From a virus, in IMG/VR virus record IMGVR_UViG_3300034198_011088, positions 1-36,285 of that record: 36,285 nucleotides of DNA. One strand, given 5' to 3'. A program made the position numbers and the translations under genes. A model generated the notes under the pieces. The model worked only from the letters and a program-made list of their open reading frames with translations. It was not told the DNA's origin and ran no database searches. Shown here in pieces: positions 1,907-36,159 of this stretch. Positions within the stretch are counted from its first letter, which is position 1. Each line of letters begins with the position of its first letter.

Positions 1907-1914
1907 TATTTATC
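1907..1914 (-). promoter_or_regulatory. Late-type promoter box of tail tube gene
   Basis: GATAAATA lies on the minus strand, 5 bases from the ATG at 1901. It is a T4 late-promoter-like octamer before a bona fide structural gene, which anchors the interpretation of the other boxes of this class. Confidence 0.7.
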
Positions 1915-1939
1915 ATTCTTGGAATGTTTTATAAAATAA

Positions 1940-1971
1940 AAAATCCGACAAGAATTAACTTGTCGGATTTT
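1940..1971. terminator. Rho-independent terminator
   Basis: A 13-bp perfect stem (AAAATCCGACAAG with CTTGTCGGATTTT) closes on a 6-base loop, with A/T tracts on both sides. It ends the minus-strand run 4725-1986 and insulates the tail tube promoter just downstream. Confidence 0.88.
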
Positions 1972-1985
1972 AAAAATGATATATT

Positions 1986-2279
1986 CTAAAAAGAATATTT
2001 GGTATTCAAAAATTCATAATCCAGATCCTCGATTTCCCAAGATTCTTCGGTTGTTGAAGATAATGAATATTTGTAAGGCACTCCTCCTGTAGCTTTAATG
2101 CATGTTTTAATGTCTCCTCCTGCATCTTCGATATATTCCAACATCTTTCGATATTCGATATCTTTTTCTAAAACCCGCTTTTTCTTAATTGCACTGGTCT
2201 GATTAATGAATTTTAATCCATTGCATAATGCAAACCAATTCGCCAATTCCACGGTATCCATTTCGCTTGCTGTTTTCAT
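1986..2279 (-). CDS. Hypothetical protein, 97 aa
   Basis: Unrecognised, charged, with an E/D-rich C-terminus. The frame stays open upstream, but the supported start is the ATG at 2279 (MKTASEMDTVELANW). It lies one base past the TAA of the preceding gene (GAG TAA T ATG), a coupling-like junction seen repeatedly here. It is the last gene of the minus-strand run that begins with the exonuclease at 4725 and is followed by the terminator at 1940-1971. Confidence 0.65.
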   Translation of the reverse strand: MKTASEMDTVELANWFALCNGLKFINQTSAIKKKRVLEKDIEYRKMLEYIEDAGGDIKTCIKATGGVPYKYSLSSTTEESWEIEDLDYEFLNTKYSF

Positions 2280-2280
2280 A

Positions 2281-2814
2281 TTACTCAATTGTGATTTTAT
2301 TTTTCCCTTGTTCATAAACCCGAAGAACCACACTTCCCACACACGGAAAATTCCTAATCCGCATTGCCACTGGAATCTGATTTTCAGTGATAAATTCGTA
2401 ATTGGGATCAACAATTTTATTGGCGAGCATAATGGCAGCACTATCAGCTTGTAGTTTCATAGCATCCGATCCTTGTCTCGCAGAGTTCCTATAGGTATCA
2501 TAGGTATTCTTAAGATACTTGCTCATGATCTTAAATTGAGGACCATGAACAGTCCAGAATTCCAAAGGAGTGCGTTTCATCGTAACTTCACATGATTTGC
2601 ACATAAATTCATCTTCTGATCCGTGATTATCCAATAATGATTGATATTGATCAGGATTTAGAATCTTTTCAATTTCACAGTATCCACAAGTCACATTACG
2701 GTTAATCCGGGACACAATTTCTTTTTCTACCAAGATTTTCTTGGGAGGCTTTTCGATTTTTGGTTTTTTTGTTAGATCTGGTAAGATGATACTGTCGATG
2801 TTTTCCATTTTCAT
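2281..2814 (-). CDS. Hypothetical zinc-binding protein, 177 aa
   Basis: The N-terminal 30 residues are Lys/Pro-rich. A probable zinc knuckle follows: CGYC around residue 43 and CKSC around residue 72. The rest is helical and mixed, ending with RIRNFPCVGSVVLRVYEQGKNKITIE. I do not recognise a family. It sits between tight co-directional neighbours (3-base and 1-base gaps), downstream of other CxxC proteins (3608, 3228 genes). Its position near the tail tube gene is compatible with a minor structural or late regulatory role, but that is only positional inference. Confidence 0.65.
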   Translation of the reverse strand: MKMENIDSIILPDLTKKPKIEKPPKKILVEKEIVSRINRNVTCGYCEIEKILNPDQYQSLLDNHGSEDEFMCKSCEVTMKRTPLEFWTVHGPQFKIMSKYLKNTYDTYRNSARQGSDAMKLQADSAAIMLANKIVDPNYEFITENQIPVAMRIRNFPCVGSVVLRVYEQGKNKITIE

Positions 2815-2817
2815 ATT

Positions 2818-3228
2818 TTAATAATTTTCAAATTTTAGTAAACTTTCTGTCATTCCTAGCACTAATGGTAATAGGTAGGCATTCTCTACATTATCTTTCT
2901 TTAGAATTTCTGCAACTTCTTTTTCCAGAATTTCCAGTTTTTCTTTAATACCTGACAAATCTTTTGTGTTATCCAGCAATTTTAAAGACGATAGGAAACA
3001 ATGGTGAAACTTGGATAAAAATGATGCACTATCCAATACATTGATATTAGTAGAGAATGTAAGATTAGTATTGGTTTTAAATCGTTGCATATCAGGTCCA
3101 ATTGTTGCAGAAAATGCAACAATATCTTTTCTCAATGCTTTCATCAGAGGTTTTTGATTCTCTGCAAGAACTTCCAGAGGGGTAGAAACTTCCAATCTTT
3201 TGGAACTGTAGATAAAGTCGGGTTTCAT
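2818..3228 (-). CDS. Hypothetical helical protein, 136 aa
   Basis: Unrecognised. The second half (about residues 78-136) is strongly helical with a heptad-like stretch (IKEKLEILEKEVAEILKK), suggesting a coiled coil. There is no signal peptide or membrane segment. Its start overlaps the stop of the membrane protein gene (shared base 3228), so translation is probably coupled. Confidence 0.65.
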   Translation of the reverse strand: MKPDFIYSSKRLEVSTPLEVLAENQKPLMKALRKDIVAFSATIGPDMQRFKTNTNLTFSTNINVLDSASFLSKFHHCFLSSLKLLDNTKDLSGIKEKLEILEKEVAEILKKDNVENAYLLPLVLGMTESLLKFENY

Positions 3229-3608
3229 TAGTCGATTGGTTCTGTAATGGCAGCAGTCATAAAATTAACATGAATGCCGTTGAATTTTTTACAATTCTCA
3301 CATTTAAATTCAGTATCAGTCAGATCAATTTCAATCTCGTTCTTGGCATTACAGTGCGTGCAGTTTAAAGGGATAGAATACTTCCGGTATGGTTTGGCCT
3401 TATATACCTCAAGTGCCTCCATAAGCTTCCTAGTCTCGTATAAACGACTCCAGAGAATAGGAGCAAGGAATTGAATAACAACGATTAGCCAAAAGACAGG
3501 CCAGAAACTAAATCCAAAAATACTCAATCCATAAGCCAATGCCGCACTGATGGCAGATGTGATAGCAACAGAAGTTGTTACCATTAATATTTTTTTACTA
3601 GGTTTCAT
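3228..3608 (-). CDS. Membrane protein with C-terminal zinc ribbon
   Basis: 126 aa. Two hydrophobic helices (about residues 8-30 and 34-52) form an N-terminal hairpin. A basic stretch and a four-cysteine ribbon follow (CTHC near residue 84 and CENC near 104). An inner-membrane anchor with a cytoplasmic zinc module is the simplest topology. No family recognised. It shares its first base with the stop of the neighbouring small zinc-ribbon gene, so the two are probably translationally coupled and may act together. Confidence 0.7.
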   Translation of the reverse strand: MKPSKKILMVTTSVAITSAISAALAYGLSIFGFSFWPVFWLIVVIQFLAPILWSRLYETRKLMEALEVYKAKPYRKYSIPLNCTHCNAKNEIEIDLTDTEFKCENCKKFNGIHVNFMTAAITEPID

Positions 3609-3790
3609 TACTTTTTAGCAGGTTCAATAATTCGGGTAATTCCAATTTTAACAAATGATCCACAATTTTGACATCTCCAACTACATTCAGAGACTAAAGA
3701 TCCATCAGGTTTTCGGACGGGAGATTCACGACCGGGAACAGTTGTTCGGCAATTTCCGCAAGCTACAGGAGTATTTTGTAATAGGTTCAT
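3608..3790 (-). CDS. Small zinc-ribbon protein, 60 aa
   Basis: Two CxxC pairs (CGNC near residue 12, CQNC near residue 40) form a classic rubredoxin-like zinc ribbon, with little else in the protein. Such ribbons bind nucleic acid or protein partners. A TATAAATA box (3796-3803) lies exactly 5 bases from its ATG and overlaps the stop codon of the upstream exonuclease gene. It can therefore be transcribed independently of that gene, probably late. Function unknown. Confidence 0.7.
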   Translation of the reverse strand: MNLLQNTPVACGNCRTTVPGRESPVRKPDGSLVSECSWRCQNCGSFVKIGITRIIEPAKK

Positions 3791-3795
3791 GATTT

Positions 3796-3803
3796 TATTT
3801 ATA
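3796..3803 (-). promoter_or_regulatory. Late-type promoter TATAAATA
   Basis: A perfect TATAAATA on the minus strand, 5 bases before the ATG at 3790. It is embedded in the 3' end of the exonuclease gene and would give a leaderless transcript for the 3608-1986 genes. Confidence 0.6.
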
Positions 3804-5342: not shown

Positions 5343-5350
5343 ACTAAATA
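5343..5350 (+). promoter_or_regulatory. Late-type promoter box ACTAAATA
   Basis: The box lies 7 bases before the ATG at 5358, divergent from the box at 5315-5322. Confidence 0.45.
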
Positions 5351-5357: not shown

Positions 5358-5537
5358 ATGTCATCCCTAATTCAATCTAGTCGTATCAATGTCACAGTCG
5401 GTCATCAGATCTTTTCTATTCCTTCTGACAAAGTAAATCAAGTCATCAATCTGCTATCTTCTTTACAGAGTATTCAGATTCAAGAGAATCCCACTCCATA
5501 TCTGCAATATAACGGAAAAACGCTTATCAATGAATAA
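5358..5537 (+). CDS. Small hypothetical protein, 59 aa
   Basis: The reading frame runs ATG 5358 to TAA 5537 and encodes a Ser/Gln/Ile-rich peptide (MSSLIQSSRINVTVGHQIFS...). There are two beta-like stretches separated by a helix (DKVNQVINLLSSLQSIQ). Support comes from the late-type box 7 bases upstream, the good spacing to the next gene at 5559, and the absence of any better frame here. No family recognised. Confidence 0.55.
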   Translation: MSSLIQSSRINVTVGHQIFSIPSDKVNQVINLLSSLQSIQIQENPTPYLQYNGKTLINE

Positions 5538-6171: not shown

Positions 6172-7068
6172 TTATATAATGTTTAAATCCGTTTTAATTT
6201 CATTTATAATAGATTCGAAATTGTCTATATTAATTTTACATCCTTTTGAAATATTTTCTTTAGCCCACATGGGTTGTAAATTTTTATAATAAAAGCAAAT
6301 TTTCTGATGTTCTTCTTTAGTGAAATCAAAATAGTTACATGGAATAATATGATCTATATGCCAACCATGTGTTCCGTAATTTTCCCATGACATATTTTCA
6401 GTGAATTTACTCTCTAAATATAATTTTAAAGCTTCGAAAGAAATTCCTGTCATATTTAATGTTGATTCTTTTTTACTACTACCATCCAAAGCAGATCTCA
6501 TTCTATCTCTCATATTTTTAGCTATTCTGTTAGTTGGATTTTCTAGCCATTTCTTCCTTTGGGTTCTAGCTTTTTGCCTATGTTCTTCTGTATTTGTTCT
6601 TTCTCTTGCTCTAATTAAGCATTTTTCTCTGTATATAGGATCATTTAATTTTTTTAATTTGAGATATTCTCGATTTTTTATTTGTTGTTCCTTAGTTTTT
6701 GAAGGTCTTTTTCCTTTCATTCTATCCAAATATGACTTTTTATAAATAGTCTCACACGACAAACATTGTGGACGAGGCCCAAATAAATGATTTTTTATAC
6801 CATATTTTCCGTGTCTAAAATCTCCAACATTCTTTTCTATATTACACTTTGAACAAATTTTTGAGTTAGGTGTTGTTGGGATCAGTTTAACTTTATCCAA
6901 ATTAGATGATTTATAATTTGGGACGGTTCTCAGTTTATACTCTTTATTCCATTTAGAACAACAATCTTTACATTTATTATTAAATCCGTCCCTAGTGGTC
7001 TTGTGAGTATGAAAAGAAGAAGTGGATTTACTAAGGTTACAATATTTACATAGTTTATTTTTGATCAT
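6172..7068 (-). CDS. HNH homing endonuclease with zinc knuckles
   Basis: 298 aa. Two Cys4-type knuckles occupy the N-terminus (CKYC at residues 7-10 with CKDC near 33; CSKC near 72 with a partner CLSC about 30 residues later). A long Lys/Arg-rich linker follows (about 115-190). The C-terminal HNH nuclease has GWHIDHIIPCNYFDF and NLQPMWAKENISKG, with the H/D-H catalytic pair and the distal N and K-G. This architecture is typical of free-standing phage homing endonucleases that spread by cutting alleles lacking them. The gene opposes its neighbours and carries an AGTAAGTA box 5 bases upstream of its ATG, the same variant as the tail fibre gene. Confidence 0.9.
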   Translation of the reverse strand: MIKNKLCKYCNLSKSTSSFHTHKTTRDGFNNKCKDCCSKWNKEYKLRTVPNYKSSNLDKVKLIPTTPNSKICSKCNIEKNVGDFRHGKYGIKNHLFGPRPQCLSCETIYKKSYLDRMKGKRPSKTKEQQIKNREYLKLKKLNDPIYREKCLIRARERTNTEEHRQKARTQRKKWLENPTNRIAKNMRDRMRSALDGSSKKESTLNMTGISFEALKLYLESKFTENMSWENYGTHGWHIDHIIPCNYFDFTKEEHQKICFYYKNLQPMWAKENISKGCKINIDNFESIINEIKTDLNII

Positions 7069-7073
7069 ACTAT

Positions 7074-7081
7074 TACTTACT
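7074..7081 (-). promoter_or_regulatory. Late-type promoter box AGTAAGTA
   Basis: On the minus strand, 5 bases before ATG 7068. The same octamer and spacing occur at 9911-9918 before the tail fibre gene. Confidence 0.5.
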
Positions 7082-8272: not shown

Positions 8273-8473
8273 ATGTGGATAGCAATGAAAAATTATAATT
8301 GGCAAAATATCCAAGTCAATGGATATTCTTTATCTTTAGCTTCTCCGTCAGATAAAGGTCTGATTGGTTATATGCCAATATTCGATACCTATGAAAATGC
8401 CTTGGAATGGGCTGGAGAAGATTCTGCAAATAGTATTAAAGAAATCGAACTCGTAAATAAAAATGAACATTAA
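8273..8473 (+). CDS. Hypothetical protein, 66 aa
   Basis: Unrecognised small protein (WQNIQVNGYSLSLASPSDKG...). It could start at ATG 8273 or ATG 8285. Its stop overlaps the clamp loader start by 11 bases, and it begins 9 bases after the preceding gene. It is therefore almost certainly co-transcribed and perhaps coupled with the clamp loader gene. Confidence 0.6.
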   Translation: MWIAMKNYNWQNIQVNGYSLSLASPSDKGLIGYMPIFDTYENALEWAGEDSANSIKEIELVNKNEH

Positions 8474-9374
8474 ACAAGTATGGGTAGAGAAATATCGTCC
8501 AAAGACCATTGAAGAAATGATTCTGGACGAAAAGAATCTAAAATATTTTTCGGAACTTACTGAAATACCTAATAATCTATTATTTGTAGGACCTCCAGGA
8601 TGTGGGAAGACTACTCTTGCTAAGATTCTTGCGGATAAGTTCGCCAAATATTCCTACCTATATATCAATGCCAGCGAAGAAGGTAATATTGATACAGTAA
8701 GGAATAAAATTGCTGATTTTATCTCTGTTATGTCCATTGATGGAAGTCAAAAGGTCGTTATTCTCAACGAAGCATGTGGTGTTAGTCTTGTTGCACAACA
8801 AGCATTAAGGAGCATCATGGAGGATTATCTGGATAATGTTAAATTTATCCTGACTGCTAACTATAAGAATAAATTGAGTGAGGCAATTCGTTCCAGATGT
8901 CAGGAATTTACCTTCGAATATACAGATAAACAAGTCCTACAACGGGTTGTGCAAATTCTGAAATTGGAAAAGATCACAGTTGAAGCAGAATCCAAAGATG
9001 ACCTGAGAAGATTGATTAAACAGTATTCTCCCGATATTCGTAAAACTCTGAATGAATTGCAAGCTGCGTGTATTACAGGAACATTTAGATATTCCAATGA
9101 TTCGTTTTCTAATTTTGCCGAAGACATTAAATTGGAATTGAATAGTGGTAAAAATGTATTTATGATTCGTCAAAAAGTCGTAGACAACTCTGATAAATTT
9201 GGCAATGATTATCATGCATTAATGAAAAACCTTTTTGAACTTTATATTAAAGATGAAAATTTACATGCAGTTGTATTGATTTCCGAATATATGTTTAAGC
9301 ACAGTCAGGTTCTTGATCCAGAAGTAAATTTTTCCAGCTTGTTATTTAATTTAAAAAATAAAATGAGTAAATAG
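8463..9374 (+). CDS. Clamp loader ATPase subunit (T4 gp44-like)
   Basis: 303 aa, near T4 gp44 (319 aa). WVEKYRPKTIEEMI is the RFC box II hallmark, GPPGCGKTT (residues 43-51) the Walker A motif and AIRSRCQEF (about 142-149) the SRC/arginine-finger motif. AAA+ ATPases of this group open and load the sliding clamp on primer-template DNA. The Walker B region reads VVILNEAC (98-105) instead of the usual D-E-A-D or D-E-F-D, so the first metal-coordinating Asp is Asn. The partner small subunit (gp62) and the clamp (gp45) are not recognisable in the window. Confidence 0.92.
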   Translation: MNIKQVWVEKYRPKTIEEMILDEKNLKYFSELTEIPNNLLFVGPPGCGKTTLAKILADKFAKYSYLYINASEEGNIDTVRNKIADFISVMSIDGSQKVVILNEACGVSLVAQQALRSIMEDYLDNVKFILTANYKNKLSEAIRSRCQEFTFEYTDKQVLQRVVQILKLEKITVEAESKDDLRRLIKQYSPDIRKTLNELQAACITGTFRYSNDSFSNFAEDIKLELNSGKNVFMIRQKVVDNSDKFGNDYHALMKNLFELYIKDENLHAVVLISEYMFKHSQVLDPEVNFSSLLFNLKNKMSK

Positions 9375-9379: not shown

Positions 9380-9520
9380 ATGTTCGCATTATACGCCTTG
9401 AAATTAGAAGAAGACTGCCGGAACACAAAATGTTCCAAAATAGTGTCGAAAAAAGATAAAAAACAAATCACTAAAGAGCCAGAAATAATTCCTACTAATG
9501 ATTTGGTAGCTTGTAAGTAA
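9380..9520 (+). CDS. Small hypothetical protein, 46 aa
   Basis: ATG 9380 to TAA 9520, starting 5 bases after the clamp loader stop. It encodes MFALYALKLEEDCRNTKCSK followed by a Lys-rich middle, with three cysteines. Support is moderate: it fills the gap neatly and has no overlapping rival. Its 3' end overlaps the late-type box of the next gene. It shows no resemblance to T4 gp62, which is much larger. Confidence 0.45.
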   Translation: MFALYALKLEEDCRNTKCSKIVSKKDKKQITKEPEIIPTNDLVACK

Positions 9521-9523
9521 ATA
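9516..9523 (+). promoter_or_regulatory. Late-type promoter box AGTAAATA
   Basis: The box lies 5 bases before ATG 9529, and overlaps the stop codon of the small upstream frame. Confidence 0.55.
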
Positions 9524-9528: not shown

Positions 9529-9885
9529 ATGAATTTACAACCAAGTTTAAGCGTTTCTTTCAATGATCGTCGAGCATTGTTTTCTGAAGAATTGAAATTT
9601 GGAGGACATGGACAAAAATATCTAAGTGGTGGAGGAATTTTTTTTCCCAGCACAGGCTGCGTATTCTACAGTATTAATTTCTTATCTAATACCGTAGTAA
9701 CAAATGCAGGATTTCGATCTACAAATTCGACCAATAAAGTTATTTACACTTTTGATCCGATCTCCAATGTGACATTTCCTCAAAATTATACATGGAATGC
9801 TCCTTTAAGCTCTATTAGTTTAAGTGCAGGAGGATCGGCTATCGCCTATCAATATAAATTATTCATTCCAGAAGATTTAAGATAA
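9529..9885 (+). CDS. Probable small structural protein, 118 aa
   Basis: The protein is rich in Ser, Asn, Gly and Phe with alternating hydrophobics and no charged helix, a beta-rich composition typical of tail or decoration proteins. It has its own late-type box and directly precedes the tail fibre gene. A role at the tail or fibre, such as an adaptor or accessory, is inferred from position and composition only. No homologous family recognised. Confidence 0.6.
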   Translation: MNLQPSLSVSFNDRRALFSEELKFGGHGQKYLSGGGIFFPSTGCVFYSINFLSNTVVTNAGFRSTNSTNKVIYTFDPISNVTFPQNYTWNAPLSSISLSAGGSAIAYQYKLFIPEDLR

Positions 9886-9910: not shown

Positions 9911-9918
9911 AGTAAGTA
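9911..9918 (+). promoter_or_regulatory. Late-type promoter box of tail fibre gene
   Basis: AGTAAGTA lies 5 bases before ATG 9924. An upstream ATG at 9920 is out of frame and hits a stop after 4 codons. Confidence 0.55.
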
Positions 9919-9923: not shown

Positions 9924-12731
9924 ATGCCTACTAGATTGACATTATCTGACGACTTATCTAATTTAATAACTGCCCCAACCTATAATGCTGCAAAAGTTCA
10001 ATTAGGTATAGATTCAACTGCCAGTCCTATATTTTCGGGATTATCGTTCGAGGACGAATTTAATCAAATATATTCAACTATAGGTCCGAATTTAATATAT
10101 TTTGAACCATTCGATTCTGGTAATCCACTAGGAAATAGGGCACGTATGAGTATACAAAGTGATGGAGGGGACACCATGAATATACGATTGTATAGTTCCG
10201 CCCTTGAAGGAGGGGATTATACGATTTTAAGTTCTGATACAATAAGCACTCCTTATGTAGCCGCAGGATTTTTTAATGTGCCCGGAGCAATTGGAGGAGG
10301 ACCATTAGGGACACTTAATTCTACGGGCTTATCGTTTTATAATGTCAGTGGAAACCGTCTCAATGAGTATCCGGCAAATCCATCTGACGTAACCCAGTAT
10401 GTGGCAGATTCCAATTTAACGATAAGCAGCGGAACAACTCCCCGCAAAACAAATATTATTTTAAATGCGGCAATTAACGGAACTCGCACATATGTCTTAC
10501 CTCTAGCTTCTTCATATCTTGCAGGAATGGGAATTTCATTTACTGATGTTATCGGAACAATAACTTCCACGAATAATGTCATTTTAAATTCTGCGGGGAG
10601 CGATACAATAAATGGATCTCCTACTCTTGTATTGACCGATCCGTATTCCAATATTCAACTTATTAGTGATGGTGTTAGTAAATGGGCATGTAGAACTCCT
10701 ATAAATTCTCTATCCAATAGCGGCGTTACCGCAGGAACTTATGGATCTTTAAGTTCAATTCCTGTTATTAATATTGATAGCAAGGGAAGAATTCTTAGTG
10801 CTTCCAGTATTCCAGTATCCAGTGCTGCCATTCTAAGAACTGGAAGAACTATTGGTATGACCGGTGATGTTACTTGGACTACTCCTGCATTTGATGGATC
10901 ATCCAATGTTACTGCTGTTGCTACATTGTCGTCTACTGGTGTTACTGCGGGAACATATGGATCTTTAAGTTCTATTCCTATTTTTACAGTGGATAGCAAA
11001 GGAAGATTGTTGCAAGTTTCCAATTCTGGAAGCATTAGTGCAACTGTTGCCGCCACTGCTAATACTGCTAACACTGCTAATACTGCTAATACTGCTAATA
11101 CTCTTACGACTCCAAGAACCATAAACGGAGTTTCGTTTAATGGTAGTTCTAATATCACAGTTTCGGCAATTCCTGTAGTTCAAGTGGTAGGAAATGCCAA
11201 TGCGGTCATATCTGCGGGTATTACTAATATTCGTCTAGCAACTGCTCTTACTTCTCCATGTATCTTCACTGTTCCTAATCCTGCATCATACATTGATGGT
11301 TCCTCTTTAACTTTCACCGATGCTTCATTATCTCTGACTAATACTAATACGGCTATATTATCTGCGGCATCAGGAACTATTAATGGGACGAGTAACATGG
11401 TTATCTCAACGCCTGGAGCATCTCCCGTATTAATATCTGACGGAATTAATAAATGGACTTTGGATATCAAAGGAATTACACGAGGTGGAACCGGTTCAAC
11501 TACTGCATCTGGTGCACGGACCAATTTAGGGCTGGGAACGGGGGATAGTGTGGCATTTGGAGCAGGAACATTTTCAGGTGGGATTACTGCGTTAGGTGTG
11601 GTTACTGCGTCAGGTGGTCTTACTCTGCCTTACGTAACTCCCTCTGCCGGGATTGCCCAACTCCGTTTTGTGCCAAATGCAGGGAATGGAATCAATTTTA
11701 ATATAGAATCAAGCGGGTCTGCAGTCTCAGTCAGAAGTGATAATAGTAACTCTAGCAACTTGTGTCTCCGAACCGGTGGTGTTGATCTTGGATCGAGTGG
11801 AGTCGTGCGTTGGAGCAACTTGGCAGGGAATGCGCTGACCACTATGGATATAGGAATTCGCAGGGCGTCTGCCGGAGTAATGGAGGTTTTTGACGGCAAC
11901 ACTAATGGACTTCTTCAGGATATTAGTGTTCGCAACCTGAGCGCGTCTGGCACTTTGACACTAGGAGCCTCGGGAATTTTAGTCGGAGGGGCAAATGCTA
12001 TTGAACAGCGGAACGGACCCAACGCGCAGACGTTTCGGGTTTATAACTCAACTGATGCAACCCCGGCGACTGCAACCCCGGCGAACTTCGACAGGGGCTT
12101 TTTTGGATTTGCATCCAACGAATTGCGAATCGGAAGCGAGGTTGGGGGATCTTACAGCAGCGGTCCGCGCAACGTCAATTTTATGCGCAACGGAGCAGTG
12201 CAACTCATCCTTGGCAATGGGGGATTGACAGCTAACACCAATTTAACTTTTAATACAGATAACGCATATGACATCGGTGCGAGCGGGGCGACTAGGCCGA
12301 GGACAATTTATATTGGGAGCGTCGGTAACACTTCTGCTGGAGCGTCGTTGGTTGCGGCTGGAACAGCAACATTTGGGGGCACAGTCACTTTCGGAGGAAC
12401 GCTTATTATTGGCAACTCTGCTGGGACAATATCTCTTTCCGGCACGGCTCTCAACATAGGCGCGGCTACGACAACAGCCGTTGTGGTGGCACCTGGGGGC
12501 ACCCCTACGGTTCAATTAGGCGGCACCACCTCGGCATTTCCCGCAATCAAGCGAAATGGGTTTGGGATTGATGTTGTGCTGGCAAATGATTCAGGGTTTG
12601 CTCCGATTAAAGGCAAAATCACCACGGATTCCGCTTACAATGCCACTGTAGTTGCCGATACTGGCTACATCACAATCTACGACTCAACCGGGACACCATA
12701 CCGTGTGCTCTGCGCTCCAAATGCTACTTAA
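9924..12731 (+). CDS. Tail fibre / receptor-binding protein, mosaic
   Basis: 935 aa, almost free of cysteine and dominated by Gly, Ser, Thr, Asn and Ala. It contains two copies of GVTAGTYGSLSSIP-x-x-x-x-DSKGR (around residues 268 and 338), a signature of phage fibre shafts. There is also an A-N-T repeat (about 378-392) and GGTGSTTASGARTNLGLG (about 520-537), a motif common in tail fibres and prophage fibre proteins. Two longer modules ending in LISDG-x-x-KW are duplicated (about 190-255 and 430-515). From roughly 11480 the DNA becomes visibly G+C-richer and codon use changes, so the C-terminal receptor-binding third was probably acquired by recombination. Confidence 0.88.
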   Translation: MPTRLTLSDDLSNLITAPTYNAAKVQLGIDSTASPIFSGLSFEDEFNQIYSTIGPNLIYFEPFDSGNPLGNRARMSIQSDGGDTMNIRLYSSALEGGDYTILSSDTISTPYVAAGFFNVPGAIGGGPLGTLNSTGLSFYNVSGNRLNEYPANPSDVTQYVADSNLTISSGTTPRKTNIILNAAINGTRTYVLPLASSYLAGMGISFTDVIGTITSTNNVILNSAGSDTINGSPTLVLTDPYSNIQLISDGVSKWACRTPINSLSNSGVTAGTYGSLSSIPVINIDSKGRILSASSIPVSSAAILRTGRTIGMTGDVTWTTPAFDGSSNVTAVATLSSTGVTAGTYGSLSSIPIFTVDSKGRLLQVSNSGSISATVAATANTANTANTANTANTLTTPRTINGVSFNGSSNITVSAIPVVQVVGNANAVISAGITNIRLATALTSPCIFTVPNPASYIDGSSLTFTDASLSLTNTNTAILSAASGTINGTSNMVISTPGASPVLISDGINKWTLDIKGITRGGTGSTTASGARTNLGLGTGDSVAFGAGTFSGGITALGVVTASGGLTLPYVTPSAGIAQLRFVPNAGNGINFNIESSGSAVSVRSDNSNSSNLCLRTGGVDLGSSGVVRWSNLAGNALTTMDIGIRRASAGVMEVFDGNTNGLLQDISVRNLSASGTLTLGASGILVGGANAIEQRNGPNAQTFRVYNSTDATPATATPANFDRGFFGFASNELRIGSEVGGSYSSGPRNVNFMRNGAVQLILGNGGLTANTNLTFNTDNAYDIGASGATRPRTIYIGSVGNTSAGASLVAAGTATFGGTVTFGGTLIIGNSAGTISLSGTALNIGAATTTAVVVAPGGTPTVQLGGTTSAFPAIKRNGFGIDVVLANDSGFAPIKGKITTDSAYNATVVADTGYITIYDSTGTPYRVLCAPNAT
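10720..11010 (+). repeat. Duplicated fibre shaft module
   Basis: Two imperfect copies of about 80 bases, beginning near 10720 and 10930 and about 210 bases apart, both encode GVTAGTYGSLSSIP...DSKGR. They share the core atggatctttaagttc. Boundaries are approximate. Confidence 0.7.
11055..11099 (+). repeat. Five tandem 9-mers ACTGCTAAT
   Basis: Five 9-base units in frame, one with a single change (AAC for AAT), encode the T-A-N tripeptide repeat of the fibre. Slippage here would change length by whole tripeptides. Confidence 0.85.
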
Positions 12732-12931: not shown

Positions 12932-13243
12932 TTAATATTTTGATATTTTTATAATTATTTCATCCAACAAATATACAAATCTTTCATATAAAAAAGAAAT
13001 CCCAGAACTGGCGAATGCAAACGGAATAAGAATACTCATAGGAATATAAAAAACTCCTATGAGTATTCCTACATATAAACCCGAACACAGCGAACATTTA
13101 ATCAATTTCTTAGTAAAATTAAATCTTTGTAAAAATGGACGAATCTTTAAAATATCCATGATCTCTGCATGAACAATCGTAAACGTCAATCCGCAACATG
13201 CCAGTAATAAAATAATCAATTCAACCATAGAAACATTTTCCAT
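12932..13243 (-). CDS. Integral membrane protein with CxxC motif
   Basis: 103 aa. There are three hydrophobic segments (about residues 5-25, 51-68 and 70-85). Between the first two lies KCSLCSGLYVGILIG, a C-x-x-C-x-G-x-x-x-G pattern that recalls small phage and bacterial membrane proteins of the DUF1360 type. Role unknown. An ATTAAATA box lies 5 bases before its ATG, so late expression with the protease upstream is plausible. A perfect 14-bp inverted repeat is embedded in the coding sequence. Confidence 0.7.
   Translation of the reverse strand: MENVSMVELIILLLACCGLTFTIVHAEIMDILKIRPFLQRFNFTKKLIKCSLCSGLYVGILIGVFYIPMSILIPFAFASSGISFLYERFVYLLDEIIIKISKY
13030..13068. repeat. 14-bp inverted repeat inside membrane protein gene
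   Basis: GAATACTCATAGGA and TCCTATGAGTATTC are separated by 11 bases. The hairpin lies in coding sequence for two membrane segments and has no T tract, so it is not an obvious terminator. Confidence 0.8.
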
Positions 13244-13248: not shown

Positions 13249-13256
13249 TATTTAAT
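13249..13256 (-). promoter_or_regulatory. Late-type promoter box ATTAAATA
   Basis: On the minus strand, exactly 5 bases before ATG 13243. It shares its first base with the stop codon of the protease gene. Confidence 0.5.
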
Positions 13257-14251
13257 TATCGTTTAAAGAGTTTTTTAAAGAGTTTTTTAAATTTATCAAA
13301 CACTGTCTCTTTTTTAACTACAACTCTCGGAAGACTTTGGATACTGGCAGAAAATAATTTATCAGGATCGATAATACCCCATCCGTATTGTAAATCCTTT
13401 CCTTTATCTCCTAGATCGATACAATTTTCGTAAAGAAGATTTTTAACTTGATCTACAGTTAAAGTTTCTCCTAGAGATTTATGGTATGATAGTAATAATG
13501 CAATGATACCCGAAATCCCAGGACTCGCCATCGAACTGCCAGATAAGAGGGCATAGGTATCATTTCCGTAAGTGGATAAAATATTTTCTCCAGGAGCTAA
13601 AATATCCAATGAACTTCCCCAAGAAGAAAATTTGGATCTATTACGTAATATGATATCATTATATGATCCAACAGCAATACATTCATCATATTGCGCAGGA
13701 TATAAAATTTTATTTTCGCCATTATTTCCGGCAGCACATACCATTATGATATTTTTATCATTTAATTTTTTTATAACATCGTAAACATCAGGCATAGATA
13801 CTTCACTTCCCAATGACATATTGATAATATCTGGTTTTAATTCCAGACAATACTCCAGACCTTTTCGTATAATATTACTTCCTCCCATTCCATTTTTATC
13901 TAGAACCTTTACACTAACTAGATTAACCTCTGGCGCGATGCCCACCATTCCTACGAAATTGTCAGAAGCACCGACGATCCCACTTACATGAACTCCGTGA
14001 AAAACCGAATTATCATATATGTTTTCACCGGTTACGAAACTTCTGCATTTATCCAAAAGTATATTATCTTTTAGGTCTTTATGTAGCTGGATACCAGTAT
14101 CTAAGATCGCAACAGTTATACCTTTACCCTTAGTATTTTTCCAAATTTTGGGAATGTTCCAATCCCTTACTGCCTGTGGATAAATTTGTGATAAAGTGTC
14201 AATAGATCCTACGTGATGAACGACATAAGGTGGTAAAAAATAATCTGACAT
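13256..14251 (-). CDS. Subtilisin-like serine protease (S8)
   Basis: 331 aa with the complete catalytic triad. Asp51 lies in VAILDTGI, His85 in HGVHVSGIVG and Ser240 in SGSSMASPGISG, with the oxyanion Asn176 in AAGNNG. The usual G-T-S-M is G-S-S-M. There is no signal peptide and only a short N-terminal extension (about 42 residues), so it is probably cytoplasmic or virion-associated. The C-terminus ends in a Lys/Phe-rich amphipathic helix (VFDKFKKLFKKLFKR), encoded by a short direct repeat near 13261-13290. I chose ATG 14251 because a GATAAATA box lies 5 bases upstream. Roles in capsid maturation, host lysis or shut-off are all possible; T4 uses an unrelated prohead protease. Confidence 0.92.
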   Translation of the reverse strand: MSDYFLPPYVVHHVGSIDTLSQIYPQAVRDWNIPKIWKNTKGKGITVAILDTGIQLHKDLKDNILLDKCRSFVTGENIYDNSVFHGVHVSGIVGASDNFVGMVGIAPEVNLVSVKVLDKNGMGGSNIIRKGLEYCLELKPDIINMSLGSEVSMPDVYDVIKKLNDKNIIMVCAAGNNGENKILYPAQYDECIAVGSYNDIILRNRSKFSSWGSSLDILAPGENILSTYGNDTYALLSGSSMASPGISGIIALLLSYHKSLGETLTVDQVKNLLYENCIDLGDKGKDLQYGWGIIDPDKLFSASIQSLPRVVVKKETVFDKFKKLFKKLFKR

Positions 14252-14256: not shown

Positions 14257-14264
14257 TATTTATC
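14257..14264 (-). promoter_or_regulatory. Late-type promoter box of protease gene
   Basis: GATAAATA on the minus strand, 5 bases before ATG 14251. Box and spacing are identical to those of the tail tube gene. Confidence 0.65.
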
Positions 14265-17305: not shown

Positions 17306-18322
17306 TTAAAATAAGTCGTCAGCATCAAAACTTTTGTTCTTCTTGGAATATCCAGTATCTTTATTGTGGAAGAAATCTGACATATTATTGCCTAATAATT
17401 CTTCGGTGAACCACATAGTTTTTGTATAGACATCTTTATCGACTTCAAAGATTGCAGGGATTCCTATTTCGATTAAAGATTCGTTTAGTCTACTTTTAGT
17501 TAATGTTTCAAGAATATCGGAAGAAAGATTTTCTTCATCAATGCCATTAACCATCCAATGAATGATTTTGTTTTCAGCTTTAAATGCTTCTTTAGCTTCT
17601 TGTTGTATCCTTTCGATTAATTCATCGTCAAATAATTCAGGATGATCTTTTTTGATAGTGTTGATAATTTTCATACCAATACTAGCATGTAATGCTTCTT
17701 CGTTTCTGGTGTATTTTACTTGTTGATCAGTGTCCTTTAATACATTTTTGAATCTCGCAAACCAGTTGATAACGTAGAATTGCGAAAACAACGAAACATT
17801 CTCCACAAAAAGAGTAAAAAGAATTAATGCATATAAATATTGTTTTTTAGAATCTTTGTAAAATCTATGAGTATATTTTCGCAAATATTTAACTCGTCCT
17901 TGAATCCAATCCAATTTTAGATTTTCTGCAAATACGTCCTCTAAATCTAATACTTTAAGCAGACGCTCATAAGCATTTGAGTGAATTACCTCGACATTTG
18001 CCATAACATATCCTAAATCTTGTAGAGAAGGATGTGGCAAATTTTCTCCTAACTTTGCCCAAAAAGATTTTACGGCTACCTCGACTTGGCCAATAGCTGA
18101 TAATGTCCGAACAACAATTTCTCGTTCTTGTTCAGTTAATTCGGTTTTAAACTGATGAATATCTGACTTAAAAGTAAACTCAGCATCTGTCCAAAAACCG
18201 TGATGCATCACCTTGATAAAATCATCTGTCCATGGATAGTGATTAGGTTTTCGACTGATCTGTTCTTCAAATATGGATAATTTTGGGACTGTTGGAGGGT
18301 TCAAAATGAGTTCGTGGGACAT
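17306..18322 (-). CDS. nrdB: Ribonucleotide reductase class I beta subunit
   Basis: 338 aa ferritin-like subunit that generates the radical for NrdA. The first metal-ligand set includes E111 and H114 (VEVIHSNAY), with the radical tyrosine at Y118 in the expected H+4 position. The second-half ligands are FVENVSLFSQF and EEALHASIG (E-x-x-H). This fits a tyrosyl-radical class Ia/b enzyme. Upstream on the minus strand lies a TTGAAG/TATAAG promoter whose -35 is inside a 17-bp inverted repeat. An AGTAAATA box lies 10 bases before the ATG. The gene thus looks to be controlled at more than one stage. Confidence 0.95.
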   Translation of the reverse strand: MSHELILNPPTVPKLSIFEEQISRKPNHYPWTDDFIKVMHHGFWTDAEFTFKSDIHQFKTELTEQEREIVVRTLSAIGQVEVAVKSFWAKLGENLPHPSLQDLGYVMANVEVIHSNAYERLLKVLDLEDVFAENLKLDWIQGRVKYLRKYTHRFYKDSKKQYLYALILFTLFVENVSLFSQFYVINWFARFKNVLKDTDQQVKYTRNEEALHASIGMKIINTIKKDHPELFDDELIERIQQEAKEAFKAENKIIHWMVNGIDEENLSSDILETLTKSRLNESLIEIGIPAIFEVDKDVYTKTMWFTEELLGNNMSDFFHNKDTGYSKKNKSFDADDLF

Positions 18323-18350
18323 TGCGTGTAGTTATTTACTTCTTTTCTAT

Positions 18351-18426: not shown

Positions 18427-18552
18427 TTATTTTTGTTCTTCCTTGGGTGATTCTTTTTCTGGTTCCGGTTTCCTGAAAATAGCATCATAATTTTCCCAAT
18501 ATTTTTTAAGGTTCGCACCTTTACGAATTTGTGATCCTTTTCCGTTTGCCAT
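18427..18552 (-). CDS. Small basic/acidic hypothetical protein, 41 aa
   Basis: ATG 18552 to TAA 18427 encodes MANGKGSQIRKGANLKKYWE followed by an acidic tail (KPEPEKESPKEEQK). It has a strongly basic N-terminal half and acidic C-terminal half. An ACTAAATA box sits exactly 5 bases before the ATG, which is the main support for the gene. Unrecognised; such bipolar peptides often bind nucleic acid. Confidence 0.55.
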   Translation of the reverse strand: MANGKGSQIRKGANLKKYWENYDAIFRKPEPEKESPKEEQK

Positions 18553-19825: not shown

Positions 19826-20305
19826 TTAATTATCAAACCAAATTACAAGGCGAGTTTGTAGTCCCGCAGATTCAAGCGATTCCATAACTCGAAGAATTGT
19901 CACATATTCAGGTTCGTGTTCGTCTGCAAACTCTGAAACAACTTGTTTATATTCCTCTAGGTTCAGCCAAGTATGAGAATGCCAGTCAGGATTTGATACT
20001 GCATTACTGCGAGCATTCCAACGACTATCTCCTGATGCTACCCAACGTTCTGCATCTTCTTGAGTGCACTTATTATCTCCCTCTCCAATGTATGTCCAAT
20101 AATCCTCTCGTGTCCAAAATGCAGCATTCTCTGGATAACCTTTTAGGGGAGTAACTGGTAGAATGTCGTCATAATTACGAACTCCTGCAATTTTGGCAAA
20201 AATTCCATAGTTTCGGCCCGGATTAAAACCTTGTCCAAAATTTTTCCAAAAATCGGAATCAGCACAGGGTTTATATTCGATATAGCAATGAATGTCGCAT
20301 CCCAT
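19826..20305 (-). CDS. MGCDIH-family conserved phage protein, 159 aa
   Basis: Begins MGCDIHCYIEYK and continues with FGIFAKIAGVR-like and WHSHTWLNLEEYK segments (W-x-x-x-S-H-T-W-L). This is a recognisable but functionally undefined family common in large phages, about 150-200 aa. The N-terminal Cys/Asp/His cluster suggests a metal site, which is inference only. It lies between rIIB (18-base gap) and the coupled gene cascade. Confidence 0.8.
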   Translation of the reverse strand: MGCDIHCYIEYKPCADSDFWKNFGQGFNPGRNYGIFAKIAGVRNYDDILPVTPLKGYPENAAFWTREDYWTYIGEGDNKCTQEDAERWVASGDSRWNARSNAVSNPDWHSHTWLNLEEYKQVVSEFADEHEPEYVTILRVMESLESAGLQTRLVIWFDN

Positions 20306-20323
20306 AATTTTATTATTTAAATA

Positions 20324-23387: not shown

Positions 23388-23395
23388 ACTAAGTA
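23388..23395 (+). promoter_or_regulatory. Late-type promoter box ACTAAGTA
   Basis: The box lies 5 bases before the GTG start (23401) of the GIY-YIG endonuclease. Confidence 0.5.
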
Positions 23396-23400: not shown

Positions 23401-24402
23401 GTGAACATTAAAATCTACAAAATCGCAAATACCATAAATACCAAAGTTTATATCGGAATTACTAAACAAACTCTAAAAAGTCGTTTTCAGCAACATTGTA
23501 TCGCCAGAAGAACCACTATAGGTAGTGCAATCCAAAAATATGGAAAGGAAAACTTTATTATAGAACAAATAGACGAAGCCTTTTCTTTACAAGAAGCAGG
23601 GGAAAAAGAAACTGCGTATATCAATCAATATAATTCATTAATTGATGGAAATGGTTACAATGTTCTTGAAATATCATTTCCTTTTCACCATAATATTGAA
23701 ACGAAAATACGTTTAATTGAAGGACTTAAAAATGCCAGAAATGATATCAATAATCCGTATGTCGGGATTTATTTTCTCCAAGAGCGTCAGCGATGGTCTT
23801 ATAGTATCGACTTTAATGGAAAAATTATAAAACAAAAGAATTACGAAAATGCCTATGATGCCGCAATAGGAAGAGACTGTGAAATTGTTTTCAATTTTGA
23901 CGAAGTAATTGCCAAGCGATTAATGAATTTTCCCGAAAAATACGATGATATTAAAAATAAAATTATTACTAAACCCGAAAGAATCATGAAGCGTGAACTT
24001 AAAAGATCAAAATATAACGGAGTGCTTTATGAAAAAAGAAATGACCGATGGAGAGCGAGATTTACATCATTGAAGATATCTATGGGATTGTTTTGTTTGG
24101 AATCTGATGCAGCAGAAGCCGCTGATTTTTTAGCAACAATCCATAGTATTGAACATCATAAATTTAATTTTCCTGAAAAAATCGATTTATACAAAGACCC
24201 TAATTATATTCCCCCTGTAACAATTTTAATGGATAAAGTCAAAGTTAAACATCATAATATATCTATAGACCATGGAAAATACAGAGTTTTTGTAAGACAC
24301 AACGGTATCAAATACCGTCCATTCGCAAATTCTTTAGAAGAAGCAATAGAACTAAGAAACAAAAAATTGATTGAACTTGGTAGAAAAATTCCTTTATTTT
24401 GA
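23401..24402 (+). CDS. GIY-YIG homing endonuclease with AP2-like domains
   Basis: 333 aa, GTG start. KIYKIANTINTKVYIGIT (residues 4-21) is the GIY-YIG core (K-I-Y ... Y-I-G), followed by LKSRFQQH with the catalytic Arg near 28 and EKETAYINQYN with the metal-binding Glu. The C-terminal two thirds hold two AP2-like DNA-binding stretches (SKYNGVLYEKRNDRWRARF near 200, and GKYRVFVRHNGIKYRPFAN near 295). This is a free-standing homing endonuclease inserted between rIIA and the accessory block, against the direction of its neighbours. Its last 9 bases overlap the convergent gene at 24394. Confidence 0.9.
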   Translation: MNIKIYKIANTINTKVYIGITKQTLKSRFQQHCIARRTTIGSAIQKYGKENFIIEQIDEAFSLQEAGEKETAYINQYNSLIDGNGYNVLEISFPFHHNIETKIRLIEGLKNARNDINNPYVGIYFLQERQRWSYSIDFNGKIIKQKNYENAYDAAIGRDCEIVFNFDEVIAKRLMNFPEKYDDIKNKIITKPERIMKRELKRSKYNGVLYEKRNDRWRARFTSLKISMGLFCLESDAAEAADFLATIHSIEHHKFNFPEKIDLYKDPNYIPPVTILMDKVKVKHHNISIDHGKYRVFVRHNGIKYRPFANSLEEAIELRNKKLIELGRKIPLF

Positions 24403-31167: not shown

Positions 31168-31197
31168 AAAATAAAATAAAATAAAATAAAATAAAAT
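31168..31197 (+). repeat. (AAAAT)6 pentanucleotide repeat
   Basis: Six perfect AAAAT units, extended on the left by degenerate copies from about 31158, end 2 bases before ATG 31200. The tract occupies the region where a promoter or initiation signal is expected, so copy-number changes could alter expression. Confidence 0.9.
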
Positions 31198-31199
31198 AT

Positions 31200-31616
31200 A
31201 TGCAAACCACTGTAGAAAAATCGTTTTATGAAGCTCTTCTTGAGGGTCCTGTTGCTGTATGGACCCCCAAAAGGGTAATGTCTATTATCCATGAACAGGT
31301 CCGTCTGTCTCCAGAGCAAGCAAGGCACATTCTTAGGAAATACTGCTATAATGAGCGTAATCCGGCATCGAGTGTTGTTATTAGATATGCTTCTGATATG
31401 ATAGCAAATCGTTGGGAAGCTACTGGATCTACTACTATCTGCTTCTCAAAAGAAGGAAAGCTTCTGGATGGTAAACATCGACTTCTAGCACTTATCAAGA
31501 GCGGAACTGATCAGGATTTCTTGATTACTTACGGCGTTGATAAAATTTCGTTTTTCCGTTTTCAAAATGGGGAAATCCCCGCAACCGCTGATGTTCTAGG
31601 AAGTAAAGAAAACTGA
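31200..31616 (+). CDS. Truncated ParB-like paralogue, 138 aa
   Basis: It aligns along its whole length with the N-terminal half of the next gene's product: FYEALLEGPVAVWTPK, SPEQARHILRKY, RYASDMIANRW, then CFSKEGKLLDGKHRLLALIKS and ITYGVD. L-D-G-K-H-R-L is the sulfiredoxin/ParB-like box. It stops just after the point matching T-S-D-V-L-G in the longer copy. The M-D-x-G-K-x-R motif is degraded (RFQNGEIPAT), and the C-terminal half is absent. It may be a decayed duplicate or a shortened regulatory form. An AAAAT repeat lies directly upstream. Confidence 0.75.
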   Translation: MQTTVEKSFYEALLEGPVAVWTPKRVMSIIHEQVRLSPEQARHILRKYCYNERNPASSVVIRYASDMIANRWEATGSTTICFSKEGKLLDGKHRLLALIKSGTDQDFLITYGVDKISFFRFQNGEIPATADVLGSKEN

Positions 31617-31646
31617 AATTGAACTTTCTCACTAAACTAAACTGAA

Positions 31647-31659: not shown

Positions 31660-32547
31660 ATGCAAAAAACTACTATCGAAAAGCCGTTTTATGATCAACT
31701 ACTAGACGGTCCAATCGTTTCTTGGACTCCCAAGAAATCAAAGGTTATTGTGGCAGAAACTTCGGACATTTCTCCAAATCAAGCCCGATATATTCTTAAG
31801 AAGTATAACAATATCAATCGGAAACTTTCGTCGGTTAATGTCACGAAATATGCATCTGACATGACTGCTGGACGTTGGAAAAATGACGGAGAAACTATCA
31901 TTTTCTCTAAAGAAGGAGATCTTCTGAATGGTCAACATAGGTTGCTTGGAGTCATTAAAAGTAACACCTCACAGAATTTTCTCATTAGTTACGGGGTTGA
32001 TAAATCTACCTTCGATGTTATGGATAACGGAAAGAGCAGGACTACTTCTGATGTGTTGGGAATGATGAAATATGAAAATTCTGCTATTTTGGCGGCACTT
32101 GCCCGAACAATTCTGGCATATGAGAGAAATGGTGGATTTAATGCGAAGAATTTTAAAGGTGCTAATCAAATCAGTAAATCTGAAACAATCGCATATATTG
32201 AAGCCAATCCAGAAATTGGAAATTACATTGAGCGGTATAAGAAATGTAGTTTGGTGCCAAGTTCAGTGACATCCTTCTTGTATTGGTTGTTCAGTAATAT
32301 CAATAAAGCCCATGCAGAACAATATCTGAATATGGTATTGATGGGATACGGAATTTCTCCTGACACATTGGAAAGTTATCTTTTCAATAAACTTCAACGT
32401 AATCGTAATGCGATTCAGAATAAGATGACTAAAAATGCGGTCATTTCTAACATTATTATCGGATGGAATCGATTCCGGGGACATAGTAAGAGTAGTGCGA
32501 TTCAGATTATCTGGAAGCCAGAAAATGGACTTCCGAAACCCCGATGA
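31660..32547 (+). CDS. ParB/Srx-like domain protein, 295 aa
   Basis: The N-terminal half has the ParB/sulfiredoxin-like box FSKEGDLLNGQHRLLGVIKS (about residues 87-106), preceded by KYASDMTAGRWKNDGETI and followed by SYGVDKSTFDVMDNGKSRTTSDVLG. This order is seen in a widespread phage family annotated as ParB-like. The C-terminal half is helical (ETIAYIEANPEIGNYIERY ... YLFNKLQRNRNAIQNKMTKNA) and could bind DNA. ParB-fold proteins can be nucleases, CTPases or DNA binders; which applies here is unknown. A strong terminator follows. Confidence 0.8.
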   Translation: MQKTTIEKPFYDQLLDGPIVSWTPKKSKVIVAETSDISPNQARYILKKYNNINRKLSSVNVTKYASDMTAGRWKNDGETIIFSKEGDLLNGQHRLLGVIKSNTSQNFLISYGVDKSTFDVMDNGKSRTTSDVLGMMKYENSAILAALARTILAYERNGGFNAKNFKGANQISKSETIAYIEANPEIGNYIERYKKCSLVPSSVTSFLYWLFSNINKAHAEQYLNMVLMGYGISPDTLESYLFNKLQRNRNAIQNKMTKNAVISNIIIGWNRFRGHSKSSAIQIIWKPENGLPKPR

Positions 32548-34115: not shown

Positions 34116-34118
34116 ATT

Positions 34119-34909: not shown

Positions 34910-34912
34910 ATT

Positions 34913-35359
34913 ATGATTAAAACAATTAATAAAGATATCCTTACAGTTGAGAATGGAGTAATTCTTCAATGTGTCAATTGCTTGGGTGCCAGAGGAGGTC
35001 TGAATGGTCAGATCTGTAAGAAGTGGTCAAAGGTCAATGATGAATATGTAAAACTCATCGAAGATACTAAATCTGCATGGAAGTTGATGGGAACCAATCA
35101 GGAAATTAAAGTGGATGATGATTTGGTTGTGGTTAATATGTTCACCCAATACGATATTGGAATGTCTGCCAGAAAGACGGAATATGCCGCATTGAAATCT
35201 TGTTTGAATGCAATTGCAACCCGTTGGAATCCCAAAAAACCGTTGTATATACCATATAAAATCGCTTGCGGAATGGGGTTAGGAAGCTGGGAAATTGTAG
35301 AAGAAATGTTGGAATATTATTTTCAATGGCATGATAACGTTTTTATTTGTAAATTATGA
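34913..35359 (+). CDS. Macrodomain protein (ADP-ribose-binding fold)
   Basis: 148 aa, essentially one macrodomain. IINK-like start TINKDILTVENGVILQCVNCLGARGGLNGQI corresponds to 'G-D-I ... x-x-V-N-x-x-G-x-x-G-G-x-A'. The second phosphate-binding loop is YIPYKIACGMGLGSWEIVEEML ('P-x-I-G-x-G-x-G-G-x-x-W'). This is closest in style to OARD1/Poa1-type macrodomains that hydrolyse ADP-ribosyl esters or ADP-ribose-1''-phosphate. In a phage it could reverse host ADP-ribosylation or process RNA-repair by-products. Its stop overlaps the next ATG by 4 bases. Confidence 0.85.
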   Translation: MIKTINKDILTVENGVILQCVNCLGARGGLNGQICKKWSKVNDEYVKLIEDTKSAWKLMGTNQEIKVDDDLVVVNMFTQYDIGMSARKTEYAALKSCLNAIATRWNPKKPLYIPYKIACGMGLGSWEIVEEMLEYYFQWHDNVFICKL

Positions 35360-35634
35360 ACCTACAAGCAATGATAGATGGAATGTCTGCTGGTTGGCAG
35401 AAAGAACGTGCAGAATCCCAAATGACTCTGGGAAAACTAATTGATAAACTGGACTCACTGCCCCCAGAAACTAAATTGGAAGGATTTGGCGAACCTCATA
35501 GTTATCGCGGATATTATTCGGATTTGGCTTTTGAAAAAACTGATGAATGGTTGGCATTTTATAGATCAACTGGTATGAAAATTATGGATATCCTTAATGA
35601 TGGCACACTTGAAATTGCAGAAGACGAATTTTAA
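35356..35634 (+). CDS. Conserved phage hypothetical protein, 92 aa
   Basis: The sequence SQMTLGKLIDKLDSLPPETK then GFGEPHSYRGYYSDLAFEKT is a recognisable small family found across many unrelated phages (pattern G-x-x-x-P-x-S-Y-R-G-Y-Y-x-x-L-A-F). Its function is unknown. It starts with an ATGA overlap in the macrodomain gene (context AAATTATGAA), so it is likely co-expressed. Confidence 0.78.
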   Translation: MNLQAMIDGMSAGWQKERAESQMTLGKLIDKLDSLPPETKLEGFGEPHSYRGYYSDLAFEKTDEWLAFYRSTGMKIMDILNDGTLEIAEDEF

Positions 35635-35645
35635 AATAATGCTCC

Positions 35646-35673
35646 TTGATTTATTTGAAATCTGTGGAATAGT
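35646..35673 (+). promoter_or_regulatory. Possible sigma70-like promoter for 35680
   Basis: TTGATT (35646-35651), a 16-base spacer, AATAGT (35668-35673), then 6 bases to ATG. The -10 is poor; it is listed because spacing matches the other start-proximal promoters. Confidence 0.35.
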
Positions 35674-35679
35674 CTTCTC

Positions 35680-36087
35680 ATGAAGATTTTTGATAAATCT
35701 ATAGAATTGGCCAGAGCACTAATGACCAAAGATTGGAATGGCCGTAGATGCTTCCATTTGTCTTTTGTGTATCGAAAAAATCAACTTGTGGTAGTTGCAG
35801 AAAATTCCATCAAAACCAGTTCCCGCAATCGATTTAATTCTAAATGGGATCTTTTGAAGAAGGGACAGTGCTCTGAACTTCGGGCATTTATTTCGATCAA
35901 AAATAAATTCAATAATTTTGATTGGAAAAAATCCATCATGATTAATATTCGATTGGGAAGGAACGGCGAACTCCTGAACTCCCGTCCTTGTGTATCTTGT
36001 TCCAATCTTATAAAATATATGGAAGTTGGAAGTCTTTGGTATTCTACGGATGAAGGCGATTTCCGAAATTATTACTTGAAGAATTGA
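35680..36087 (+). CDS. Hypothetical protein, 135 aa
   Basis: Unrecognised basic protein rich in Lys, Arg, Asn and Phe (LSFVYRKNQLVVVAENSIKTSSRNRFNSKWDLL), with a CVSC pair near residue 107. The pattern 'V-A-x-N-S-x-K-T-x-x-x-x' followed by a later C-x-x-C faintly resembles deaminase-like phage proteins. The H/C-A-E signature is absent, so I do not claim it. No signal peptide. Confidence 0.65.
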   Translation: MKIFDKSIELARALMTKDWNGRRCFHLSFVYRKNQLVVVAENSIKTSSRNRFNSKWDLLKKGQCSELRAFISIKNKFNNFDWKKSIMINIRLGRNGELLNSRPCVSCSNLIKYMEVGSLWYSTDEGDFRNYYLKN

Positions 36088-36103
36088 AAATCTATGGTAT
36101 AAT
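36076..36103 (+). promoter_or_regulatory. Possible sigma70-like promoter
   Basis: TTGAAG (36076-36081), a 16-base spacer, TATAAT (36098-36103, perfect -10). There is no ATG at the leaderless position, so a leader of about 55 nt would precede ATG 36165. Confidence 0.45.
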
Positions 36104-36151
36104 TCTTTATCAACAATTATCCTTCTTCAAAAGACGATATTAGATATTAAA

Positions 36152-36159
36152 AATAAATA
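36152..36159 (+). promoter_or_regulatory. Late-type promoter box AATAAATA
   Basis: Five bases before ATG 36165. Confidence 0.5.

Follow-up and report, generated by a model that had tools for sequence, protein, structure and literature searches.

Late transcription in phage T4 is a textbook system in which promoters of the form TATAAATA are read by RNA polymerase carrying gp55, together with gp33 and the gp45 clamp, and the late mRNAs are assumed to carry a leader with a ribosome-binding site. Here we describe late-promoter-like boxes, with the core hexamer TAAATA or TAAGTA, in a 36,285-base virus contig from IMG/VR (IMGVR_UViG_3300034198_011088). The record comprises this 36-kb fragment alone, and the whole stretch is hereafter called the window. 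In the window and in a set of related contigs these boxes sit immediately before start codons, most often with a gap of exactly five bases. What is new is probably a known T4-type late promoter used in a leaderless arrangement, unlike T4's own spacing. Leaderless late promoters of the T4 type were not described in any of the open-access papers searched, subscription papers being outside the scope of the search.

Late promoters in described phages

In the T4 late promoter an 8-bp box precedes the transcription start site by about one helical turn. The T at position -13 is sometimes replaced, and variation at -13/-12 is also found within the T4-type family, in Aeh1 (PMC2988020). We measured the distance between box and gene as the number of bases between the last A of the box and the start codon. 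By this measure the hexamer peaks at 21-29 bases upstream of starts in T4, lies mainly at 20-28 in cyanophage Syn9, and is spread broadly over about 19-40 in cyanophage S-PM2. Shine-Dalgarno-like sites are present at 50% of starts in T4, 30% in Syn9 and 28% in S-PM2, compared with 8-10% in a control stretch. A sequence-only reading of the window, made by a model, had described its box spacing as different from the usual T4 arrangement, and this contrast is borne out by the position of the same hexamer in all three phages, mostly 20-40 bases upstream. A phage late promoter located on the transcription start itself has been described for the phiKZ type (TATG; PMC5312081), although the phiKZ motif is unrelated and is read by a phage-encoded multisubunit RNA polymerase.

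Boxes at a fixed distance from start codons in the window

Among 60 curated starts in the window, ten have a box at distance 5. Over distances 0 to 10 the counts are 1, 0, 0, 1, 1, 10, 1, 1, 1, 3 and 1. Dinucleotide shuffles of the upstream 40-mers (2000 rounds) gave a mean of 0.23 boxes at distance 5 and a maximum of 3. The sequence-only reading had listed ten octamers with a five-base gap and proposed comparing the distance distribution with that of shuffled DNA. All ten are present on the strands given and lie exactly five bases from the start, and the distribution is a single spike at that distance. The first two bases of the octamer vary. The ten boxes are listed below; G001 and G002 are related contigs, G001 being the long contig nearest to the window when tail tube, protease, clamp loader and zinc-ribbon protein are compared.

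1907-1912, minus strand: TAAATA, 5 bases before the ATG of the tail tube (gp19-like) gene 1239-1901; in the G001 ortholog the box is at 6 and the protein N-terminus is identical in position
3796-3801, minus strand: TAAATA, 5 before the ATG of a 60-aa zinc-ribbon-like gene, 3608-3790; also at 5 in the G001 ortholog, N-termini aligning from residue 1
7074-7079, minus strand: TAAGTA, 5 before the ATG of an HNH (endonuclease VII-like) gene, 6172-7068
9518-9523, plus strand: TAAATA, 5 before the ATG of gene 9529-9885; gene 9380-9520 ends on the first TAA of the box
9913-9918, plus strand: TAAGTA, 5 before the ATG of a 935-aa tail-fibre-like gene, 9924-12731
13249-13254, minus strand: TAAATA, 5 before the ATG of a membrane protein gene, 12932-13243; TAAGTA at 5 in the G001 ortholog
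14257-14262, minus strand: TAAATA, 5 before the ATG of a subtilisin-like protease gene, 13256-14251; orthologs have a box at 5 (G002) and 7 (G001), with N-termini conserved from the ATG
18558-18563, minus strand: TAAATA, 5 before the ATG of a 41-aa gene, 18427-18552
23390-23395, plus strand: TAAGTA, 5 before the GTG start of a GIY-YIG gene, 23401-24402
36154-36159, plus strand: TAAATA, 5 before the ATG of a gene that starts at 36165 and runs off the contig

The three TAAGTA boxes precede both homing-endonuclease-like genes (6172-7068 and 23401-24402) and the tail fibre gene.

The word itself is not enriched. TAAATA is under-represented in the window, with 43 occurrences where 67 are expected by chance, so it is the position that is special, and we discarded a general excess of the hexamer as the cause of the boxes. 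Additional boxes are located at other short distances:

5345-5350, plus strand: TAAATA, 7 before the ATG of gene 5358-5537, within the 5-9 range seen in relatives
9368-9373, plus strand: TAAATA, 6 before the ATG of gene 9380-9520
20314-20319, minus strand: TAAATA, 8 before the ATG of gene 19826-20305
18333-18338, minus strand: TAAATA, 10 before the ATG of the ribonucleotide reductase small subunit gene, 17306-18322

The first of these corresponds to one of four near variants (5315, 5343, 5545 and 14806) that had also been proposed. Only the variant at 5343 contains an exact TAAATA, and the other three are looser A/T-rich matches that carry little weight. The box before the ribonucleotide reductase small subunit lies steadily 10-11 bases from the start in four contigs (the window, G001, G002 and G009), a hint that this gene is transcribed late and that its leader is very short.

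The window and its relatives

The window codes for a phage ribonucleotide reductase and an RNA ligase, and also for a gp44-like clamp loader, a T4-like tail tube (gp19) and relatives of rIIA and rIIB; the last four place it among the T4-like phages. Two of these genes are:

1239-1901, minus strand: tail tube (gp19-like), a virion (late) gene, matching phrog_45 (E 8e-22)
8463-9374, plus strand: gp44-like clamp loader, matching phrog_168 (E 7e-72)

The clamp loader shares no more than about 39% identity with known phages, and the window phage is therefore a divergent T4-like phage. The large subunit of its ribonucleotide reductase has its best matches in cellular proteins (54-59%), many of them from Bacteroidota (Flavobacterium, Chitinophagaceae) and some from archaea and others. 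These matches suggest that the hosts may be Bacteroidota, which we treat as a lead, not a proof. In flavobacteria leaderless mRNAs are in the minority: they make up 5.5% in F. psychrophilum (PMC9723704), and most transcripts are leadered in F. johnsoniae (PMC6847099). If the hosts are Bacteroidota, a leaderless arrangement would therefore be tolerated by them but would not be the host norm.

A search of viral contigs with the window clamp loader yielded no relative. Through the ribonucleotide reductase small subunit we fetched 80 contigs; unrelated phages were also drawn in and were used as controls that lack gp55. Seventeen contigs including the window (G000) were reassembled from 20-kb pieces, G012-G015 only partly, and genes were called with a simple codon-usage caller.

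Spacing in related contigs

Of all pairs of hexamer and position upstream of 1054 genes in nine IMG/VR contigs, the most enriched is TAAATA at distance 5, with 96 occurrences where 5.4 are expected; the pooled P value of this comparison is inflated by shared descent among the contigs, whereas the shuffle test on the window alone is independent of pooling. Next in enrichment are words that overlap TAAATA, and TAAATA at distance 6 (54 occurrences). Distances 0-4 are nearly empty, counts decay over 6-9, and they are low beyond 9. The predicted enrichment of the five-base spacing in the rest of the lineage is thus present, and it has a sharp lower edge. Such an edge at 5 is expected if the transcription start may coincide with the start codon but not fall inside the gene.

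The start codons are genuine. Within a lineage, alignments of homologs extend to residue 1 of the protein when the start next to the box is used, as seen for gp13 and gp15, for the zinc-ribbon protein, and for most gp20 and gp21 pairs. Since the proteins are conserved from the ATG or GTG nearest the box onwards, we rejected misannotated start codons as a source of the pattern.

Divergently transcribed genes provide a further view of the arrangement. Back-to-back boxes on both sides were found in 17 of 76 divergent gene pairs, and in 13 of these 17 only 12-54 bp separate the two start codons, for example CATATATCTATTTATAAAGATAAATAAAAATATG in G002. These short gaps leave no room for leaders. In T4, by comparison, boxes in divergent gaps of 47 and 49 bp are crossed, and each gene keeps its leader.

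Shine-Dalgarno sites are few: their frequency in contigs with the distance-5 peak is near background, 0-8% in most, with a higher value in G008 (15% compared with 4%).

Association with virion genes and gp55

The boxes are associated with late functions. A box at 5-9 precedes 29 of 52 virion-class T4 homologs, compared with one of 72 replication and nucleotide genes (Fisher P 5e-13). Among the clear cases, the distances in different contigs are 5, 5, 5, 7, 6 and 5 for gp13, 6, 7, 8, 6, 6 and 6 for gp20, and 6, 5, 5, none, 5 and 5 for gp21.

The sequence-only reading had also predicted a gp55-like late sigma factor encoded elsewhere in the genome. The 36-kb window contains none, but the lineage does. 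T4 gp55 itself is identified as phrog_234, and matches to this family occur in nine contigs (G001, G005, G007, G009, G011, G018, G019, G022 and G023), among them the closest long relative of the window. The gp55 homolog and the distance-5 peak occur together in G001, G005, G009, G011, G022 and G023, and the link between the two holds in most long contigs. G012-G015 have neither.

The start context of these four gp55-less contigs (L140-L157, L171-L176) is of another kind: AATAAT or ATTAAT stands immediately before the ATG, and positions -3 and -6 favour A.

Comparison with T4, cyanophages and cultured relatives

The boxes resemble T4 late promoters in their core hexamer, in their virion-gene targets, in the lack of an obvious -35 element and in the presence of a gp55-family sigma factor in the lineage. 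The TAAATA core of the T4-type box is present at fixed positions in the window and in its relatives, and a search for a conserved -35 element upstream of the boxes revealed no motif, only weak shifts in composition. The two differ in that the T4 box is followed by a leader with a Shine-Dalgarno site, whereas boxes in the peak contigs are mostly at 5-9 and have no such site. In Syn9 and S-PM2 the same hexamer precedes late genes, and the gp13, gp20, gp21 and gp25 orthologs are comparable, but the cyanophage box mostly remains at its larger distance from the start.

The Pelagibacter phage HTVC008M is the most informative case for comparison, and it is cultured. TAAATA lies at distance 5 before its homologs of genes 2, 4 and 25 and before others, with 14 pattern matches genome-wide. 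Shine-Dalgarno sites are found at two of 18 boxed genes but at 98 of 171 unboxed genes (Fisher P 2.5e-4). HTVC008M differs from the window lineage in this use of Shine-Dalgarno sites by its unboxed genes, in a GTA that often follows the box, and in a gp55 with a KLEYF-type tail.

Two other isolates were considered as cultured models and dropped. C48C1, which by its terminase is the closest isolate to G011, has Shine-Dalgarno sites at 40% of starts and no distance-5 peak, indicating that the switch to near boxes is not uniform among related phages. Melnitz has Shine-Dalgarno sites at 49% and no clear peak. No excess of the pattern worth following was found in Caulobacter phage Cr30, Sinorhizobium phage phiM12, Xanthomonas phage X1, Vibrio phage VS1, P-TIM40, Acj61 or pf16.

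A probable leaderless late-promoter reading of the boxes

We consider it likely that the boxes act as late promoters of the T4 type, arranged so that the mRNA has no leader or almost none. In T4 geometry the box occupies -13 to -6; adding the five bases that follow it here therefore places +1 on the A of the ATG. Host RNA polymerase with a gp55-like phage sigma factor would recognise the boxes. Transcription from a box at 5 would start on the first base of the start codon, and from a box at 6-9 one to four bases before it. Late mRNAs from many virion genes would accordingly lack a leader, or have one of only a few bases, and would be translated without a Shine-Dalgarno site. The exact +1, which we infer from the known T4 geometry, is thus a prediction, as are recognition by gp55 and leaderless translation.

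Several observations weigh against this interpretation. The major capsid gene, gp23, was found in six contigs and lacks a box at 5-9 in all of them, an unexplained exception, and within the peak contigs gp17 and gp18 also lack a near box. A distance-5 peak without a gp55 match is seen in the window, G002, G008 and G010, although the missing match may just reflect fragments of 24-53 kb. Conversely, G007, G018 and G019 have gp55, yet show at most a weak signal at 5-9, around 6-8. The TA found at -13/-12 in T4 is not conserved (the two bases preceding the core have A 0.51/T 0.30 and A 0.50/T 0.22), a point of little weight, as these positions also vary in Aeh1. The T4-type clamp, phrog_223, was found in G011, weakly in G022 and in no others, and the C-terminal clamp-binding end of T4 gp55 is kept in G011 and HTVC008M but was not seen in the other relatives. 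As the clamp is scarce and most of the gp55 relatives are without the clamp-binding tail, activation may differ from that in T4.

The gp23 gene has a feature of its own. A leader hairpin (TGAGGTC...GACCTGA) lies about 30-50 bases before its ATG in five of the six contigs, namely G010, G023 and the following three:

G005, L109:1065-1132: gp23 leader hairpin
G022, L116:7312-7379: gp23 leader hairpin
G009, L122:9297-9364, minus strand: gp23 leader hairpin

In G009 both arms are altered together (AGGTT/AACCT).

Alternative explanations

The box could instead be a translation signal, an A/U-rich start context that is Kozak-like or bound by ribosomal protein S1, in a host that makes little use of Shine-Dalgarno sites. 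The near-background frequency of such sites in the peak contigs fits this explanation, as does the possible Bacteroidota host. In F. johnsoniae, A at -3 and -6 promotes initiation, and a box at distance 5 ends in A at the favourable position -6 (PMC6847099). We nevertheless regard a translation signal as unlikely. It is a specific hexamer that shifts as a unit from 5 to 9, not a preference for single bases, and it is found at only one of the 72 replication genes in the same genomes. The peak is missing from the four gp55-less contigs, which themselves have no strong Shine-Dalgarno signal. In addition, the boxed genes of HTVC008M lack the Shine-Dalgarno sites that its other genes use, and in T4 and the cyanophages the hexamer is 20-40 bases upstream, which excludes a direct start-codon context there.

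Alternatively, the boxes could be late promoters whose mRNA begins not at the ATG but a few bases from it, or whose products are outnumbered by transcripts from upstream, such that short leaders or operon read-through, and not leaderless mRNAs, represent the functional state. Boxes at 6-9 are frequent too, the weak signal of the three gp55-bearing contigs is centred on 6-8, and gp23 is without a near box, all of which would agree with this explanation. However, the mode at exactly 5 with its sharp lower edge speaks against it, and the short divergent gaps could accommodate longer leaders only if promoters lay inside the neighbouring gene. We judge it a little less probable even than a translation signal.

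A chance or stop-codon artefact, in which upstream TAA stops are followed by ATA in an A/T-rich genome, has a negligible probability and is refuted by the shuffle counts in the window and by the boxes themselves, whose TAA is the upstream stop in 35 of 248 boxed genes but not in the other 213; divergent genes have boxes as well.

Other features of the window

A run of TAAAA-type tandem repeats at 31170-31630 lies directly before gene 31200-31616, which is apparently a shortened paralog of the next gene, 31660-32547.

Implications

Tentatively, and with some doubt, we suggest that in several T4-like lineages, HTVC008M included, the late promoter could be a fused start for transcription and translation, in which the late sigma factor determines the first codon as well as +1. 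As infection reaches its late phase, virion genes would go over to leaderless translation, which might give phage mRNA an advantage on ribosomes that are altered or poor in initiation factors.

If the proposed promoter reading is correct, a whole group of T4-like phages that places the late promoter on the start codon would demonstrate that no leader is required, and sequence could be used directly to call late genes along with their true starts. Leaderless translation could also be tested through this arrangement, both in bacteria that use Shine-Dalgarno sites and in bacteria that do not, HTVC008M being a cultured example.

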